From: a virus
Strand: one strand, 5' to 3'
IMG/VR virus record: IMGVR_UViG_3300042561_001225
Location: 1-35,422 of that record
DNA: 35,422 bases
Shown here one piece after another: positions 9,181 to 16,560 of the stretch (positions are counted from its first letter, which is position 1; the number at the start of each line of letters is the position of its first letter). The translations under genes and the position numbers were made by a program. The notes under the pieces are model-generated. The model saw only the letters and a list, made by a program, of their open reading frames with translations. It did no database searches and had not been told where the DNA came from.

Positions 9181-11559
9181 ATGGATCTATTTAATCCACC
9201 AAGATTATACAATTACAATATTATGATAAAAGATTTGGACTTTCCAAAGTTTGAAAACCCGTCTATACAAGTAGTATGGGAAGATTTCCAAGAAAATTTT
9301 ACACAAGATAAGATTAAAAGTGTTAAACATTATTTCCAAAAAAAATATAACACAACCAATGTTAATGTTTTAACAAAGGTTAAAAATGTGGACCAGGAAA
9401 CAATGCAAACGGTTGATGTTTCAGTTAATATTACTGACACCAACTATCAATTGGACTTGTTAAAGAAATTTTTGGAGTCAAAAGGTTATGAAAAAAATCT
9501 TGATAAAGTATTGGAGTTAAACCGAATGGTTGAAAACAAAATGGAAGAAGGTGATGTTGATATTACACAATTCAAAAAGTGGTATATTAGAAATATTGAG
9601 TTCTCGAATTTTTTATCATACGGTGAAAACCAAAGATTAGATTTTGACAAACTAAATGGTTTAGTTGTTGTTGAATCTAATCCACCTAATTTTGGTGGTA
9701 AGACAGTTCTTACGGTGGATTTATTGATGTTCTTATTTTTTAATGAGACAACAAAAACATCAAAAGCTGAGGAAATCTTTAACCGATTTACCGATAAAGA
9801 CTCGGTGGTTGTTAAAGGTGAAATCACAATTGATGGTGAAGATTATATTATTCTAAGAAAGATTGAAAGAAAAAAATCTAAAAAGGGTGACTGGAATGTA
9901 AAAACAGAATTAGACTTCTTTAAAAAATTACACGACGGATCACTACAAAACTTCACCGGAGAACAAAGAAGGGAAACTGAAGCGTTCATTAAAAATTCTA
10001 TTGGAACCAAGGAAGATTTCTTAATGACCATTCTTACAACAGCAACAAATCTTGAAGATTTATTGGAGTCAAAACCAACAGCCAGAGGACAAGTCCTTTC
10101 AAGATTTATGGGTCTTGAGTTTTTAAAACGGAAAGAGGAGGTCGCAAAAGAAATTTATTCGGACTTTAACAAATCAAAACTATCAAATCTATATAGTTCT
10201 GAACAGTTAAAATCGGATATCAAAACTTATGAGGACCAAATCGTTAGTTATAATGAATCAATTGTTGAGTATAAGAATGAGTTAAAAGATATTGACGAAA
10301 AATTAAGTAAGGGTAAAGAATATCGTGATGATATGTTAAAGAAAAAACATACAGACATTGATAAGGAAATTGCTCTTATGAACCCACAGGAAACTCAAAT
10401 TGAAATCCAGAATTTGAATGGTCAAAAAGAATCTTTCCAGGAAAAATTAAAGGAATTAAATGTTGTTGAACCGGAAAACTATTATTATGAAGATAAGCAT
10501 GATGAGGTTAAGGAAGAATACAAAAAAGTTAATACCGAAAAGATTACACTTGATACAAAAATATCTGAAATTGAAAAATTAAAAAGTTCAGTTAAGGGTG
10601 GTATTAAGTGTGAACACTGTGGAATTGAGTTAATGAACGCTGCAATTACCCAACAAAAAATCTCGGAACTTGACGGACTTATCCTTCAAAGAGGTGAAAA
10701 AGTTAAATTAATGACGGATTTAACCAACAAAGAAAAAGAATTTGTTGAAACTAAAAGACAGTTTGATGAGTATGAGAAAAACAAACTTATCAAAGAAAAA
10801 TATGATTTAAGTATTGAAAGTTGCGACTTAAAGATTTCTGGGTTAAATAGTAAGTTGGAAAGATGGAATGAAGTACAAGATAAAATCAAATCTAATTTGA
10901 AAATTGACGAAATGTTAATTAAAGCTGACATTAGAATTGATGAGCTTGAACAAATGAAAAAAGATAAGAACCAACAAATCTCTTCAACCGAATACAATAT
11001 TAAAACAACGGATGAAAAAATTGATCATAATAAAAAAATGATTGTTAAAATCCAGGAAGAAGAAGAAAAGGATAAAATTTACAAAATATATCTTGAATCT
11101 TATGGTAAGAACGGAGTTTCAAAAATTATTATGAAAACTATGATGCCGTTAATTAACTCTGAATTACAAAGATTAATGGAAGATAGTAGTTATTTTAAAC
11201 TTGAAATTAGAATCAATGATAAAAGTGAAGTTGAGTTTCTTATGATTGATAATGGGACCGGTGTCGAAAAACTTATGGTTTCCGGATCTGGTTACGAAAA
11301 AACTATCGCTTCACTCGCTTTGCGTTCGGTGTTGAGTAAGATCTGTAGTTTACCAAAACCAAATCTGGTGGTATTTGATGAGGTTTTTGGGAAAATTAGT
11401 AATGACAACTTGGAAATGGTATTTGAGTTTTTTGTTAAAATTAAAGATTATTTTGATAAAGTGTTCCTTATTTCGCACTCGCCTTTAGTGAACCAATGGG
11501 CAGATTCGTCTGTTAAGATTAGAAAAGAAGATAATGTTTCAAAAGTTTTGGTAAATTAA
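9181..11559 (+). CDS. Recombination ATPase subunit, SbcC/Rad50-like (T4 gp46-like)
   Basis: A 792-aa SMC-type ATPase. The N-lobe starts near residue 135 (IRNIEFSNFLSYGENQRLDF), followed by a P-loop at 167-175 (NPPNFGGKT). Two long coiled coils flank a zinc hook (C477, C480 in KCEHCGIE). The C-lobe carries the ABC signature (VSGSGYEKTIASLALRS, from residue 700), Walker B (VVFDEVFGK, D733/E734) and the H-loop (LISHSP). With the SbcD-like subunit it would open and process DNA ends. Two oddities: an extra N-terminal region of about 130 residues before the ATPase lobe, and a P-loop with Pro where the first Gly is usual. The end of the gene carries the -33 box of the next promoter. Confidence 0.85.
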   Translation: MDLFNPPRLYNYNIMIKDLDFPKFENPSIQVVWEDFQENFTQDKIKSVKHYFQKKYNTTNVNVLTKVKNVDQETMQTVDVSVNITDTNYQLDLLKKFLESKGYEKNLDKVLELNRMVENKMEEGDVDITQFKKWYIRNIEFSNFLSYGENQRLDFDKLNGLVVVESNPPNFGGKTVLTVDLLMFLFFNETTKTSKAEEIFNRFTDKDSVVVKGEITIDGEDYIILRKIERKKSKKGDWNVKTELDFFKKLHDGSLQNFTGEQRRETEAFIKNSIGTKEDFLMTILTTATNLEDLLESKPTARGQVLSRFMGLEFLKRKEEVAKEIYSDFNKSKLSNLYSSEQLKSDIKTYEDQIVSYNESIVEYKNELKDIDEKLSKGKEYRDDMLKKKHTDIDKEIALMNPQETQIEIQNLNGQKESFQEKLKELNVVEPENYYYEDKHDEVKEEYKKVNTEKITLDTKISEIEKLKSSVKGGIKCEHCGIELMNAAITQQKISELDGLILQRGEKVKLMTDLTNKEKEFVETKRQFDEYEKNKLIKEKYDLSIESCDLKISGLNSKLERWNEVQDKIKSNLKIDEMLIKADIRIDELEQMKKDKNQQISSTEYNIKTTDEKIDHNKKMIVKIQEEEEKDKIYKIYLESYGKNGVSKIIMKTMMPLINSELQRLMEDSSYFKLEIRINDKSEVEFLMIDNGTGVEKLMVSGSGYEKTIASLALRSVLSKICSLPKPNLVVFDEVFGKISNDNLEMVFEFFVKIKDYFDKVFLISHSPLVNQWADSSVKIRKEDNVSKVLVN

Positions 11560-11561
11560 AA
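11541..11561 (+). repeat. 21-bp direct repeat, left copy
   Basis: AAAAGTTTTGGTAAATTAAAA covers the last codons (KVLVN, stop) of the SbcC-like gene and recurs at 16542-16562 with one mismatch, over the last codons (KVLVD, stop) of the second cytosine methyltransferase. Both copies contain a promoter -33 TTTG. The pair brackets the restriction-modification, sigma and methyltransferase block. Confidence 0.7.
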
Positions 11562-11578
11562 TATTATTTGTAAGTTTG
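11547..11578 (+). promoter_or_regulatory. Promoter for the EcoRI-like operon
   Basis: TTTG (11547-11550), a 20-base spacer and TAAGTTTG (11571-11578) match the Bacteroidota consensus. The -33 box lies within the upstream coding end, and the -7 box is 33 bases before the restriction-enzyme ATG. Confidence 0.6.
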
Positions 11579-11610
11579 TTATTATTAAAACACATATAAA
11601 TTATAAAAAT

Positions 11611-12429
11611 ATGAGTATTACGAAGAAACAGTCAAAACGATTAACCAACCAACATAAAAAGTCTCAAGGAGTTGTTGGTATTTTTAGTGATGGGGCAAAA
11701 ATTCACGAATCGTGTGTTGGCAAGGCTACAACACATCTATTTAAAAAAATTCAAGAAGAATATTCACATCTTACTTTTAGATATAGAAAGAGTGTGTCAA
11801 AAAAAGAAATAAACGAGGTTTTGAAAAAAATGGACTCCGAATTGGGTCAAACTCTTTTTGTGTCTAAATCCTGTATTAAACCTGACGGTGGAATAATAGA
11901 AGTGAAAGACAAAAATGGGGAGTGGAGGGTAGTTTTAATTACGGAAGCAAAATTTCAAGGAAAGGACATTGAAAATATTAGAAAAGGACTTTTAGTTGGT
12001 AAATTATCCGACCAAGACTTAATGGTGGCAGGAAATGCAATTGAAAGAGCACCAAAAAACATAATTGAAGCTCGTAACTTAATGATTTCTGAACCCCATT
12101 TCCCATATATCTTATTTTTAGAAGGTTCAAATTTTTTGACAGAAACAATTTCAGTTAAAAGACCTGATGGGAGAGATGTTACCCTATCACCAAACTCTGG
12201 TTCGTTGAATAGATTGGATAGGTTGACATCATTAAATTATGGAATGCCATTAAATACTAATTTGTGTGAAAATAAATCTATAATCAAAAATAGTGTGATA
12301 TTACGTGTTTTACAAAGTGCATCTATTTATACAAAAGGAAACGGTGAAAAATGGAACAATACCGAAATGTTTAATATTATGATGGAAATTTCAAAAACTT
12401 CTCTTAAAATATTGAGTATTGATTTATAA
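11611..12429 (+). CDS. EcoRI-like type II restriction endonuclease
   Basis: This 272-aa protein matches the EcoRI endonuclease (277 aa) as I recall it along nearly its whole length, at clearly more than half of positions. The catalytic PD...EAK set is intact: PDGG (D92), TEAK (E112, K114), one residue offset from EcoRI D91/E111/K113. The recognition segments are also kept: the loop LMVAGNAIERAPKN and the helix LNRLDRLT holding the arginines equivalent to R200/R203. It should therefore cut GAATTC. The final few residues of EcoRI (FEQLTSK) are absent. The cognate methylase follows 14 bases downstream in the same R-then-M order as the plasmid system. No controller gene is seen. Finding this enzyme between phage replication genes is unusual. 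Confidence 0.92.
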   Translation: MSITKKQSKRLTNQHKKSQGVVGIFSDGAKIHESCVGKATTHLFKKIQEEYSHLTFRYRKSVSKKEINEVLKKMDSELGQTLFVSKSCIKPDGGIIEVKDKNGEWRVVLITEAKFQGKDIENIRKGLLVGKLSDQDLMVAGNAIERAPKNIIEARNLMISEPHFPYILFLEGSNFLTETISVKRPDGRDVTLSPNSGSLNRLDRLTSLNYGMPLNTNLCENKSIIKNSVILRVLQSASIYTKGNGEKWNNTEMFNIMMEISKTSLKILSIDL

Positions 12430-12443
12430 CCTAAAAAATAACT

Positions 12444-13394
12444 ATGACACGAAAAGGATCAAATAAAGTACTACAAAAGGCTAAAAAATCAAAAAGTGAC
12501 GAGTTCTACACACAACTTTCTGACATAGAAAGTGAATTAAAACATTATCAAAATCATTTTCGAGATAAAGTTGTTTTCTGTAATTGTGACGACGCTAGAG
12601 TTAGTAACTTTTTCAAGTATTTCTCACTCAACTTCCAAAAGTTGGGTTTAAAAAAATTAATTGCAGCATCATACCAAGAAAAGGGAAATGGTTCTTTCTT
12701 TGAGTATACAGGAAAAGAAAGTGAAAAAAACGTACCAAATTCTGATGATATTGTGTATTTTGAGGGTGATGGTGATTTTCGTAAACTTGAAAGTATTGAA
12801 CTATTAAAAAAATCGGACATTGTTGTTACTAATCCTCCATTTTCATTGTTTAGAGAATTTGTACAACAATTAATACAATATGATAAAAAGTTTTTGATAA
12901 TTGGTAATATAAATGCTATCACATATAAAGAAATTTTCCAAATAATCCAAGAAAATAAAGCTTGGTTAGGTATAAATCTTGGTAGAGGTATTTCAGGTTT
13001 CATTGTACCAGACCATTATGAACTCTATGGTACAGAGACAAGAATAGATAATTTAAATAATAGAATAATTTCACCAAACAACTGTTTGTGGTTGACTAAT
13101 TTGGATAATAATAAAAGACACGAATATATACAATTAACCAAAACATATATCGGAAATGAAGACGAATATCCTACATATGATAATTATGATGGCATAAACG
13201 TTGATAAAGTAAAAAAAATACCAAATGATTATCATGGTCATATGGGAGTACCTATAACTTTTTTACATAAATTTAATCCAGAACAATTTGAATTGATTAA
13301 ATTTAGAAAGGGGGACGATAATAAAGATTTATCAATAAATGGAAAATGTCCATATTTTAGAATATTAATAAAAAACAAAAGTTTTGAATTGTAA
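12444..13394 (+). CDS. EcoRI-like adenine-N6 DNA methyltransferase
   Basis: This 316-aa protein matches M.EcoRI (about 326 aa) as recalled from end to end, including AKKSKSDEFYTQ, NCDDARVSNFFKYF, the catalytic TNPPFSLFRE (NPPF at 130-133), FLIIGNINAITYKE, GRGISGFIVP and the C-terminal GKCPYFRILIKNK. It should methylate the inner adenine of GAATTC and protect both phage and host DNA from the upstream nuclease. A short variable region around residues 80-105 differs most. No separate promoter is evident between R and M, though promoters within R are known in the plasmid system. About 110 bases of A/T-rich spacer with another promoter follow. Confidence 0.92.
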   Translation: MTRKGSNKVLQKAKKSKSDEFYTQLSDIESELKHYQNHFRDKVVFCNCDDARVSNFFKYFSLNFQKLGLKKLIAASYQEKGNGSFFEYTGKESEKNVPNSDDIVYFEGDGDFRKLESIELLKKSDIVVTNPPFSLFREFVQQLIQYDKKFLIIGNINAITYKEIFQIIQENKAWLGINLGRGISGFIVPDHYELYGTETRIDNLNNRIISPNNCLWLTNLDNNKRHEYIQLTKTYIGNEDEYPTYDNYDGINVDKVKKIPNDYHGHMGVPITFLHKFNPEQFELIKFRKGDDNKDLSINGKCPYFRILIKNKSFEL

Positions 13395-13480
13395 AAATTT
13401 TAAAATTACACTAACTCAAACTAAAAAGTGTTAAGGAAATATTTTAAATAAAAAAAACCAAAATATCAGAAACTTTTTCT

Positions 13481-13488
13481 TATCTTTG
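13481..13488 (+). promoter_or_regulatory. TAnnTTTG -7 box upstream of the sigma operon
   Basis: TATCTTTG lies 19 bases before the ATG at 13508. No clear TTTG is found at the -33 distance, so this is a half-match. It would drive the hypothetical protein, sigma factor and two methyltransferases. Confidence 0.45.
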
Positions 13489-13507: not shown

Positions 13508-14026
13508 ATGAAATACTTATTATTTGTCTATCCCTGTGATGATAACTGGGATGAAACCGAGTCAAATCAAAAATTTGCACACGAACTGGTTCATATTATA
13601 AAAGAAGAACAACTTAAATTTGTTTATGGTGAAAACCATACAATCTTTAACTTTGAAAGTAATTTATCACAAAGTGAAGTTGAGGATTATGTTGAACTTA
13701 TTAAAAAAGATGTTCCGGAATTTATGTTTGTTCTTGTCCAAAACGCAAAGAATGTGTCATCCGATATGGATAAAAACAACTTTGAACATCTTATGGGTAA
13801 GAAAAAAAGAGGAAGAAACCCTAAAACAACTAACCAAAAACCAAAATTAAGTTGGGATGTTGCGGCATTTATGGAAGAACATAGAAAAAGGGTTGATGAT
13901 TTTTTAAAAAATAACGTCTGTGATTTGACTCTTGATGAAATTTTAGATAAAATTGTAGACCAAGGTATTGATTCACTCACAAGAGCTGAAAAAGATAAAT
14001 TAGACGAATATTCAAAACAAGTTTAA
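13508..14026 (+). CDS. Hypothetical protein with SLTxxEKxxL C-terminal motif
   Basis: This 172-aa protein has a globular N-terminal half (MKYLLFVYPCDDNWDETESN), a basic linker (GKKKRGRNPKTT) and a C-terminal helical segment, LDEILDKIVDQGIDSLTRAE. That last motif resembles a short C-terminal module (LDKIxxxGxxSLTxxEKxxL) seen in many Bacteroidota proteins, which supports the host group but gives no function. It is first in an operon with the sigma factor, 4 bases upstream of it, and may modulate transcription. Function otherwise unknown. Confidence 0.6.
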   Translation: MKYLLFVYPCDDNWDETESNQKFAHELVHIIKEEQLKFVYGENHTIFNFESNLSQSEVEDYVELIKKDVPEFMFVLVQNAKNVSSDMDKNNFEHLMGKKKRGRNPKTTNQKPKLSWDVAAFMEEHRKRVDDFLKNNVCDLTLDEILDKIVDQGIDSLTRAEKDKLDEYSKQV

Positions 14027-14030
14027 ATAT

Positions 14031-14831
14031 ATGAAAGAAAAAAACACCGGAGCCCCAATTAACCAGGAAGAGATTTATCACTACCTAAAAGATATTAGAA
14101 AGATTAAGGTTATGACACCTGATCGTGAAAAAGAATTAGCCTTAAAAATGAAATCTGATGAGGTTTCTGAAAGAGAAAGAAAAAAAATAGAAGAAGAACT
14201 ATTACAAGGAAATCTTCGTTTTGTAATTACTGTTGCAAAACAATATCAGAATCAAGGACTTGATCTTCCGGACTTAATTGCCGAAGGAAACCTAGGTCTT
14301 ATGAAAGCAATTAAAAATTTTGATTGGAATAAAGATTTGAGATTTATATCATATGCTGTATGGTGGGTTAAACAATCAATTATTCAGTCACTAAATGATA
14401 ATGCTAGAACAATTAGACTACCGGTTAATGTCGTCCAGGATTTACAAAAAGCTAAAAAAGAAGTTGAGCAATCTGGAAAAAAATTAGATGATAAGTTTTC
14501 ATCACTTCCGTCAATAATCAATCTTGATATGAATATCAATGAAGAAGGTGATACACTTATTGATATGATTGCAAATCAAGATGCTGATGCTCCAGACGCT
14601 TGTTTTGATACAAAAGACATTTTAAAAGATAAGTTATTATCATTACTAAATGTTTTAGACGACCGTGAAAAAATAATTGTTGGTGATTATTTTGGACTAA
14701 CTGGAACACCAAGAACTTTAGAAGATATTGGGTCAGATTTCAATCTTACAAAAGAAAGGGTCAGACAAATAAAAGAAAAAGCACTTAGACGACTTCGTAA
14801 TGAATCATCTGAATTATTTGATTATCTATAA
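14031..14831 (+). CDS. RNA polymerase sigma-70 family factor, primary-sigma-like
   Basis: This 266-aa factor has a short region 1.2 (YLKDIRKIKVMTPDREKELA), region 2 from about residue 60 to 125 (NLRFVITVAKQYQNQGLDLP, WWVKQSIIQ) and region 4 at about 228-255 (LEDIG, then LTKERVRQIKEKALRRLR). The region 2 sequence closely resembles the short primary sigma of Bacteroidota, whose promoters carry TAnnTTTG. Region 3 looks compressed. It is not like T4 gp55. It probably redirects host polymerase to phage promoters, perhaps those found in this window. The stop overlaps the next ATG by one base. Whether it is an active sigma or a competitor cannot be told. Confidence 0.88.
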   Translation: MKEKNTGAPINQEEIYHYLKDIRKIKVMTPDREKELALKMKSDEVSERERKKIEEELLQGNLRFVITVAKQYQNQGLDLPDLIAEGNLGLMKAIKNFDWNKDLRFISYAVWWVKQSIIQSLNDNARTIRLPVNVVQDLQKAKKEVEQSGKKLDDKFSSLPSIINLDMNINEEGDTLIDMIANQDADAPDACFDTKDILKDKLLSLLNVLDDREKIIVGDYFGLTGTPRTLEDIGSDFNLTKERVRQIKEKALRRLRNESSELFDYL

Positions 14832-15712
14832 TGAATATACTTTCTCTTTTTGATGGTATTTCTTGTGGTCAAATCGCTCTTAATAGGACCGGTATAAAGT
14901 ATGACAAATATTTTGCATCAGAAATTGATAAACACGCAATTACCGTAACACAACATCACTACCCAAATACAATACAGTTGGGTAGTATTGTTGGTTTAGA
15001 TACAAGTGTATTACCAAAAATAGATTTAGTAATTGGTGGATCACCTTGTCAATCATTTAGTAGGTCCGGTGATAATTCTGGGTTTGATGGTAAAAGTGGT
15101 TTATTTTGGGAATATATTAGAGTATTAAATGAAATTAAACCAAAATATTTTCTTCTTGAAAATGTTGTAATGAAAAAAGAATGGGAAAAAATTATAACAG
15201 ATACAATTGGTTTTGAACCAGTTATGATTGATAGTAAATTTTTTTCAGCGCAAAAAAGACAGAGATTGTATTGGACCAATATTCCATTTGATAAAAATAT
15301 AAAGGACAAAAATATTAATATACTTGATATATTGGGACCAAATGGTGATGAGTGTATTATAAATGACAATCCGGTAGTTCTTGAAATAAATGATGGTGTT
15401 TTTAAAATAAAAAACGGAACAAAAATAGGATATTTGTTTGCCAAAAATGGTGATTGCGTAAACTTGGAATTTCCAAAAAGTAAAAGTAGACGTGGACGTG
15501 TAAGTAATGGAAAAACTAACACATTAAACACTGCATGTAATTACGGCGTTATTGTTAATGATAATTTAAGAGAATTAAACATTTTAGAATATGAAAGATT
15601 ACAAACATTACCAGATGGTTATACTTCAATTGCACCATTAAATCAAAGAAAAAAAATGATTGGTAATGGGTGGACAGTTGATGTAATTTCACATATATTT
15701 AAAGGACTATGA
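14831..15712 (+). CDS. C5-cytosine DNA methyltransferase 1
   Basis: A 293-aa enzyme with all main Dcm-type motifs: ILSLFDGISCGQIAL (I, AdoMet), GGSPCQSFSR (IV, catalytic C73), LLENV (VI, E110), SAQKRQRLYW (VIII), then a target-recognition region at about 170-240 with an SRRGRVSNGKTNTLN segment, and GNGWTVDVI (X). It methylates cytosine at C5 in an unknown target. It begins on the last base of the sigma stop codon and overlaps the second methyltransferase by 4 bases. The first 45 residues are almost identical to that neighbour, so the two are tandem duplicates with different recognition regions. Confidence 0.88.
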   Translation: MNILSLFDGISCGQIALNRTGIKYDKYFASEIDKHAITVTQHHYPNTIQLGSIVGLDTSVLPKIDLVIGGSPCQSFSRSGDNSGFDGKSGLFWEYIRVLNEIKPKYFLLENVVMKKEWEKIITDTIGFEPVMIDSKFFSAQKRQRLYWTNIPFDKNIKDKNINILDILGPNGDECIINDNPVVLEINDGVFKIKNGTKIGYLFAKNGDCVNLEFPKSKSRRGRVSNGKTNTLNTACNYGVIVNDNLRELNILEYERLQTLPDGYTSIAPLNQRKKMIGNGWTVDVISHIFKGL

Positions 15713-16560
15713 ATGTATTAAGTTTATTTGATGGAATGTCCTGTGGACAGATTGCTCTTAATAGAGCTGGGATAAAGTATGACAAGTATTTTGCTTCAGA
15801 AATTGATAAATATGCAATTGAGGTTACGCAACATAATTATCCGGAAACAATACAAATTGGAGATATTTTAAATGTTAAAGGAAGTGATTTACCAAAAATT
15901 GATATTATGTTTGGTGGATCACCTTGTCAGGGATTTTCATTTGCCGGTAAAAGACTAAACTTTGAAGACCCAAGAAGTAAGTTGTTTTTTGAGTTTGTTA
16001 GATTAAAAGAAGAATTAAACCCAAAATATTTTTTACTTGAAAATGTTAAAATGAAAAAAGAACACGAACAAGTAATTACAGAACATATGGGTGTTGAACC
16101 AATAAGAATAAATAGTAATTTAGTTTCTGCTCAGAATAGAGAAAGATTATACTGGACAAATATACCAGGTATTGAACAACCGGAAGATAAGGGAATCTTA
16201 GTTAAAGATATTATTGATTATTCCGGAGAACACAAGATTCTTCCACCAAAAACAATCCAGGCACAACTTTACTATGCTAAAAATTATAAAGCGACCGGTA
16301 AGGCACCAACACTTACTCGTGAGTTAGCACACGGTTGGGGTAAGAACATAACACCTAAATGTTACTTAGAAATAAAAGCAATAACCGGTGAAGACAGATT
16401 ATTTTCACCATTAGAATGTGAAAGATTACAGACAGTACCAGACAATTATTCATCAATAGTTTCAAATACACAAAGGTTTAATATGTTAGGAAATGGATGG
16501 ACAGTAGATGTTATAACACATATTTTTAAAAATATTTCCCAAAAAGTTTTGGTAGATTAA
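15709..16560 (+). CDS. C5-cytosine DNA methyltransferase 2, tandem paralogue
   Basis: A 283-aa paralogue of the preceding enzyme: VLSLFDGMSCGQIAL (I), GGSPCQGFSF (IV, C73), LLENV (VI, E111), AQNRERLYW (VIII) and GNGWTVDVI (X). Its recognition region (about 185-245, with GKAPTLTRELAHGWG) differs completely from that of the first copy, so a different target is likely. It ends with an extra tail, ISQKVLVD, absent from the first copy. The DNA of that tail forms half of the 21-bp direct repeat shared with the end of the SbcC-like gene. No cognate restriction gene is seen, so self-protection is the likely role. Confidence 0.88.
   Translation: MNVLSLFDGMSCGQIALNRAGIKYDKYFASEIDKYAIEVTQHNYPETIQIGDILNVKGSDLPKIDIMFGGSPCQGFSFAGKRLNFEDPRSKLFFEFVRLKEELNPKYFLLENVKMKKEHEQVITEHMGVEPIRINSNLVSAQNRERLYWTNIPGIEQPEDKGILVKDIIDYSGEHKILPPKTIQAQLYYAKNYKATGKAPTLTRELAHGWGKNITPKCYLEIKAITGEDRLFSPLECERLQTVPDNYSSIVSNTQRFNMLGNGWTVDVITHIFKNISQKVLVD

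Follow-up and report, generated by a model that had tools for sequence, protein, structure and literature searches.

What is a complete EcoRI-type restriction-modification (R-M) pair doing in the genome of a phage? The question is raised by the window, by which we mean the whole stretch of DNA analysed, a 35,422 bp virus record that is probably a fragment; coordinates below refer to it unless another contig is named, and the features described from SbcC to the sigma factor lie on its + strand. The window encodes a RuvC-like protein, a primase, an exonuclease, SbcCD and a sigma factor, and no structural genes were recognised in it. At least 250 relatives of its SbcC were found in IMG/VR, and one clade relative, a 304 kb contig (L140), carries a T4-type Gp23 capsid protein (1.8e-64) and a terminase (1.3e-15). 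That contig was the only match within the clade in searches for these two proteins, the other contigs probably being fragments. Judged from sequence, the clade is a large group of uncultured T4-like jumbo phages, and the type of promoter at the locus, together with bacterial homologues of the nuclease that are mostly from Bacteroidota, points to a Bacteroidota host.

The nuclease gene (R, 11611-12429) encodes a 272 aa protein that Pfam, the PDB and residue alignment assign to the EcoRI family of type II restriction endonucleases. It matched the Pfam EcoRI profile PF02963 over positions 1-254 of 257 (E=5e-123, 409.6 bits) and crystallised EcoRI in the PDB from end to end (E=6e-108), with 65% identity to the plasmid-encoded R.EcoRI over residues 5-272, so that the sequence-only reading of an intact, full-length enzyme was borne out, apart from a C-terminus about 7 residues shorter. 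When R was aligned with 95 homologues, the residues D91, E111, K113, Q115, N141, R145 and R200 (EcoRI numbering) were near-universal and kept in the window. They include the three PD-(D/E)XK catalytic residues, D91, E111 and K113, which correspond to the D92, E112 and K114 named in that reading. Its claim for the DNA-recognition residues stood in part: the base-contact residues Q115, K117, N141, A142, R145, R200 and R203 are all present, as is M137, but H114, A138, E192 and Y193 are replaced by F, V, S and P, respectively. EcoRI positions 114, 138 and 192 are residues 115, 139 and 193 of the window protein, and an R homologue on an independent viral contig (L002) has S, V and L there. We take E192K to belong to the same class of EcoRI mutants as A138T and H114Y. 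The latter two alter the specificity of EcoRI (PMC11755562). With three promiscuous-mutant positions changed, the specificity of R may deviate from exact GAATTC; since other natural EcoRI homologues also vary at these positions, we did not adopt relaxed specificity through H114F, A138V and E192S and treat it as a possibility.

The methyltransferase gene (M, 12444-13394) begins 14 bp downstream of R and encodes a 316 aa M.EcoRI-family adenine-N6 DNA methyltransferase. As had been claimed, it is intact: it matched PF13651 (EcoRI_methylase) with E=2e-122, is 69% identical to M.EcoRI, and has its NPPF motif starting at residue 130. Comparison with the L002 pair gave dN/dS values of 0.15 for R and 0.12 for M, indicating purifying selection, and hence selection on R as well as on M. 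The pair shares with the EcoRI systems of Escherichia coli plasmids (e.g. pU90-3) both full-length protein families, the R-then-M order and the catalytic and contact residues, and differs from them in its sequence identity (65% for R, 69% for M), the four substitutions and the short R C-terminus. The EcoRI system sits on a small plasmid or a chromosome, whereas the window pair sits in a jumbo phage. The pair adds a member to a family already known, and the sequence comparisons support a complete, intact and selectively maintained EcoRI-type pair in a genuine phage.

The left neighbour of the pair is an SbcC-like ATPase (9181..11559; phrog_77, E=8e-43) that is 66-95% identical in the best 80 of at least 250 relatives. 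A Bacteroidota-type promoter had been proposed upstream of R, and one is present by pattern and alignment (TTTG-N19-TAAGTTTG, 11548..11578). It belongs to the phage backbone, being common to the nearest relatives, L101 and L102, despite their different cargo. On the right, a TATCTTTG -7-type box conserved in relatives (13481..13488) precedes g172 (13508..14026), which encodes a 172 aa DUF6576 protein (PF20216, 8.5e-11) and follows the locus in most relatives. A phage sigma-70-family factor comes next (14031..14831; Sigma70_r2/r4; phrog_351, 2.5e-54). The pair had been placed between a recombination ATPase and a sigma factor; the ATPase is confirmed, but g172 intervenes before sigma, so that the right border was off by one gene. 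Behind the sigma gene are two tandem C5-cytosine methyltransferase genes (14831-15712 and 15709-16560), the presence of which varies among relatives.

Because the contig is metagenomic, and bacteria and plasmids often carry EcoRI systems, the pair might have come from a chimeric assembly or from contamination with bacterial or plasmid DNA. A plasmid match at the DNA level, which the sequence-only reading regarded as a possible sign of contamination, was looked for, and no plasmid with DNA matching the pair was found. The same reading proposed a search for the pair in related phages, and L002 has the identical SbcC-R-M order. In a tree that is mainly Bacteroidota, the R proteins of L002 and the window group as sisters (SH-aLRT 98). 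The backbone promoter and the flanks of the window are continuous with L101 and L102 up to the exchange points, and the GC content of the pair matches that of the window. As far as sequence can tell, contamination and chimerism are excluded, and we give them hardly any credence. The dS values between the window and L002 were 1.25 for R and 1.09 for M, while that for SbcC was saturated, so R and M have diverged less at synonymous sites than the backbone gene. Together with the low dN/dS values, this suggests that the pair is functional by selection and was probably transferred between the phages after their backbones diverged.

Such a pair is rare in phages, as had been supposed. Among 50,697 annotated phage records, the EcoRI nuclease was found in 1, as a broken prophage copy, and M.EcoRI homologues in 13; 12 EcoRI loci turned up when 2.9 million viral contigs were scanned with a sensitive method. 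The family is common in bacterial genomes (264 loci), and M lies directly behind R in 86 of the 95 loci examined. An earlier survey counted nine R-M systems in 831 phage genomes and described phages as almost devoid of them (PMC4176335). Helicobacter phage Pt11509_1 (PQ159904.1) resembles the window in having homologues of both EcoRI proteins in a phage record; unlike the window, it has an R annotated as a fragment and a split M in a prophage-type genome with an integrase. Solitary methyltransferases of the same family as M occur in Mycobacterium, Flavobacterium and Campylobacter phages, without the adjoining EcoRI nuclease seen in the window. On one viral contig (L003, 534-1978) the nuclease is N-terminally truncated and the methyltransferase intact, which looks like decay towards a solitary methylase.

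The interval from SbcC to g172-sigma, hereafter the slot, was measured in 79 relatives among the matches listed, and its loci were dereplicated to 54 lineages. In 23 lineages it spans no more than 150 bp, in 2 (L177 and L179) a diverged g172 is the apparent cargo, and 29 bear cargo; about 25 of the 54 are thus empty, the empty sites being mostly about 50-115 bp. The slot exceeds 500 bp in 42 of 78 loci, which the SbcD-g212, g212-g138, g138-SbcC and g172-sigma intervals do rarely or never; between sigma and g374 lies a second zone of variation. By Pfam or homology, 20 of the 29 cargo lineages carry a DNA methyltransferase of the N6_N4, D12, N6_Mtase or Eco57I type, beside which a separate partner ORF lies in 18. 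Three further lineages (L117, L122 and L180) encode proteins of 809-818 aa with methyltransferase-like motifs and no Pfam match, and the remaining six have neither a methyltransferase nor such a large protein, one of them carrying an IS605 TnpB. Single-polypeptide R-M-like slot proteins of about 780-818 aa, most without a Pfam match, were noted in L117 (10422-12851), L118 (10445-12799), L122, L180, L196 and L211, and IS605-type TnpB genes in L119 (10403-11581), L120 and L121.

Several partner ORFs could be assigned. That of L149 matched ICEA (2.5e-36; NlaIII-like), IceA1 presumably being an NlaIII-type CATG nuclease; that of L109 matched PDDEXK_11 (1.9e-6); those of L137 and L136 matched REase_II; and one further cargo partner gave a weak HNH match. 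Most partner ORFs in other cassettes matched no recognised family; they may likewise be nucleases. A sequence search of solved structures with four cargo proteins (three unassigned partner ORFs and one large fusion protein) returned nothing useful, and the two partner families modelled with AlphaFold gave structures of low quality (pTM 0.55 and 0.37), the better of which yielded no fold match at E <= 0.001. An ORF of 174-175 aa occupies the right edge of the slot in L151 (5915-6439), L155 (11987-12511), L180 (12902-13429), L198 (10428-10955), L212 (12290-12817) and L224 (11002-11529), adjoining several unrelated cassettes and standing alone in L198; it is possibly a common accessory or regulator. 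The EcoRI pair proposed from the window is real, but it is no isolated oddity: it is one allele of a slot with many R-M-like cassettes.

The contents of the slot differ even between close relatives. L101 and L102, with SbcC and sigma each 95% identical to those of the window, lack the EcoRI pair and carry a 263-aa ORF with an N6_N4 methyltransferase in its place. Their DNA matches the window along the end of sbcC and over the promoter; similarity is lost near 11583 and resumes near 13457, ahead of the g172 promoter. Comparison of these flanks and of the empty site of L114 defines 11583..13457 as the exchanged segment, with borders approximate to a few bases. In phages around L002, with SbcC 96-98% identical, the slot is either empty, at 90 bp, or filled with one of several cassettes of other kinds, and the left flanks of this group show a common terminator-like hairpin ahead of unrelated cassettes. 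Differences in the slot extend to phages with 98-99.7% identical SbcC, such as L188 and L189 (99.7%). Among the matches listed there were at least 34 non-empty slot architectures, and the state of the slot changed at least 38 times on an SbcC tree with 139 rows. At least 201 pairs had SbcC at least 95% identical and different slot states, a count that overstates the independent events since many members are near-copies. These patterns suggest that cassettes are exchanged by homologous recombination through the flanks, and the phages appear to trade R-M-like weapons at one fixed place.

Comparable anti-phage hotspots are known from P2-like prophages and P4-like satellites, where a fixed phage locus holds alternative defence systems, R-M included (Rousset 2022, PMC9122126). 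The features of such hotspots, namely one locus, alternative cargo and an empty site in relatives, were all seen here. Those hotspots belong to temperate phages and satellites and hold many kinds of defence, of which R-M is one; the present slot belongs to T4-like phages without a detected integrase, and its identifiable cargo is mostly R-M-like. No earlier account of such a slot in T4-like phages was found in the literature searched, which left most subscription journals outside reach, and a T4-like jumbo-phage slot mainly for R-M-like cassettes appears to be new.

Site frequencies were also compared. The window has 3 GAATTC sites against about 11-15 expected, and 11 CATG sites against 88 expected, CATG being strongly depleted clade-wide. 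We rejected GAATTC avoidance as a mark of the cassette: equal or greater scarcity is seen for CATG and for several GATC palindromes, and L101 and L102, without the EcoRI pair, are also low in GAATTC, so that its scarcity is not tied to the cassette. GATC is entirely missing from L002 (6.7 kb) and from L188, L189, L192, L194, L196, L197, L205 and L211 (12-18 kb each). Relatives without the pair do carry GAATTC (7 sites in 12 kb of L189, 8 in 18 kb of L192), and their DNA would thus be cleavable by R.

With intact genes, conserved residues, purifying selection, a slot with empty sites and swaps between near-identical phages all read from the sequences, we favour, with some reserve, a functional EcoRI-type R-M cassette in a dedicated slot of a Bacteroidota T4-like jumbo phage, which would guard progeny DNA and cut unmethylated DNA of co-infecting phages and perhaps that of the host. 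We infer the activities of both enzymes, the GAATTC specificity, the timing, the target and the recombination route as follows. The host polymerase would transcribe R and M jointly from the promoter at the sbcC end. M would methylate replicating phage DNA, giving virions with protected genomes, while R would cut DNA with unmethylated GAATTC sites inside the infected cell, chiefly that of co-infecting relatives with another cassette or none, the host chromosome being a possible additional target. Cassettes would be swapped by homologous recombination via the conserved sbcC and g172 flanks.

The main rivals to this competitor-directed reading are anti-restriction by M and the cutting of host DNA. 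M could be the selected part, shielding the phage from EcoRI-like enzymes of the host, with R as a passenger. EcoRI-type systems are frequent in Bacteroidota (the 264 genome loci), phage methyltransferases are usually solitary (PMC4176335), M.EcoRI homologues outnumber R in phage records by 13 to 1, and L003 combines an R fragment with an intact M; yet R is intact in the window and in L002, under purifying selection matching that of M (0.15 vs 0.12), and a partner gene is retained in most methyltransferase cargoes of the slot, which leaves this explanation unlikely. Less likely again is that R degrades the host chromosome early, to supply nucleotides and stop host transcription, with competitors as secondary targets. 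This would fit the position of R as the first gene after a host-type promoter, and phage DNA would enter the cell methylated, unlike the DNA of the host. However, the cassette is absent from half of the clade, so such a function is dispensable, M produced together with R would shield host DNA too, and the many alternative specificities would be left unexplained.

The sequence-only reading also offered an addiction module stabilising the phage genome. A selfish module that stabilises itself or the phage genome would behave as plasmid R-M systems do (PMC4176335, PMC3874152). This reading fared poorly: a search of 8 clade contigs, most of them fragments, detected no tyrosine integrase, and the capsid and terminase of one relative are T4-like, which makes a lysogen in need of stabilising improbable; empty slots are also frequent. 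We consider it very improbable. To return to the competitor-directed reading, that near-identical phages hold alternative cassettes at a single locus suggests an allele-specific exclusion of competing phages. More tentatively, we propose that virulent T4-like jumbo phages might keep a single-allele R-M slot with rapid recombinational turnover, in which the R-M type of each phage excludes differently typed co-infecting relatives, the window carrying the EcoRI allele.

A single clade of large phages that apparently do not integrate has a fixed place for R-M, which dozens of alternative cassettes occupy in roughly half of the lineages. The slot offers a supply of uncharacterised restriction enzymes, and near-identical phages that differ only in R-M content form a natural set in which the benefit of R-M to a phage is directly testable. 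If the proposal of a single-allele slot is true, phage R-M would be an inter-phage weapon under frequency-dependent selection.
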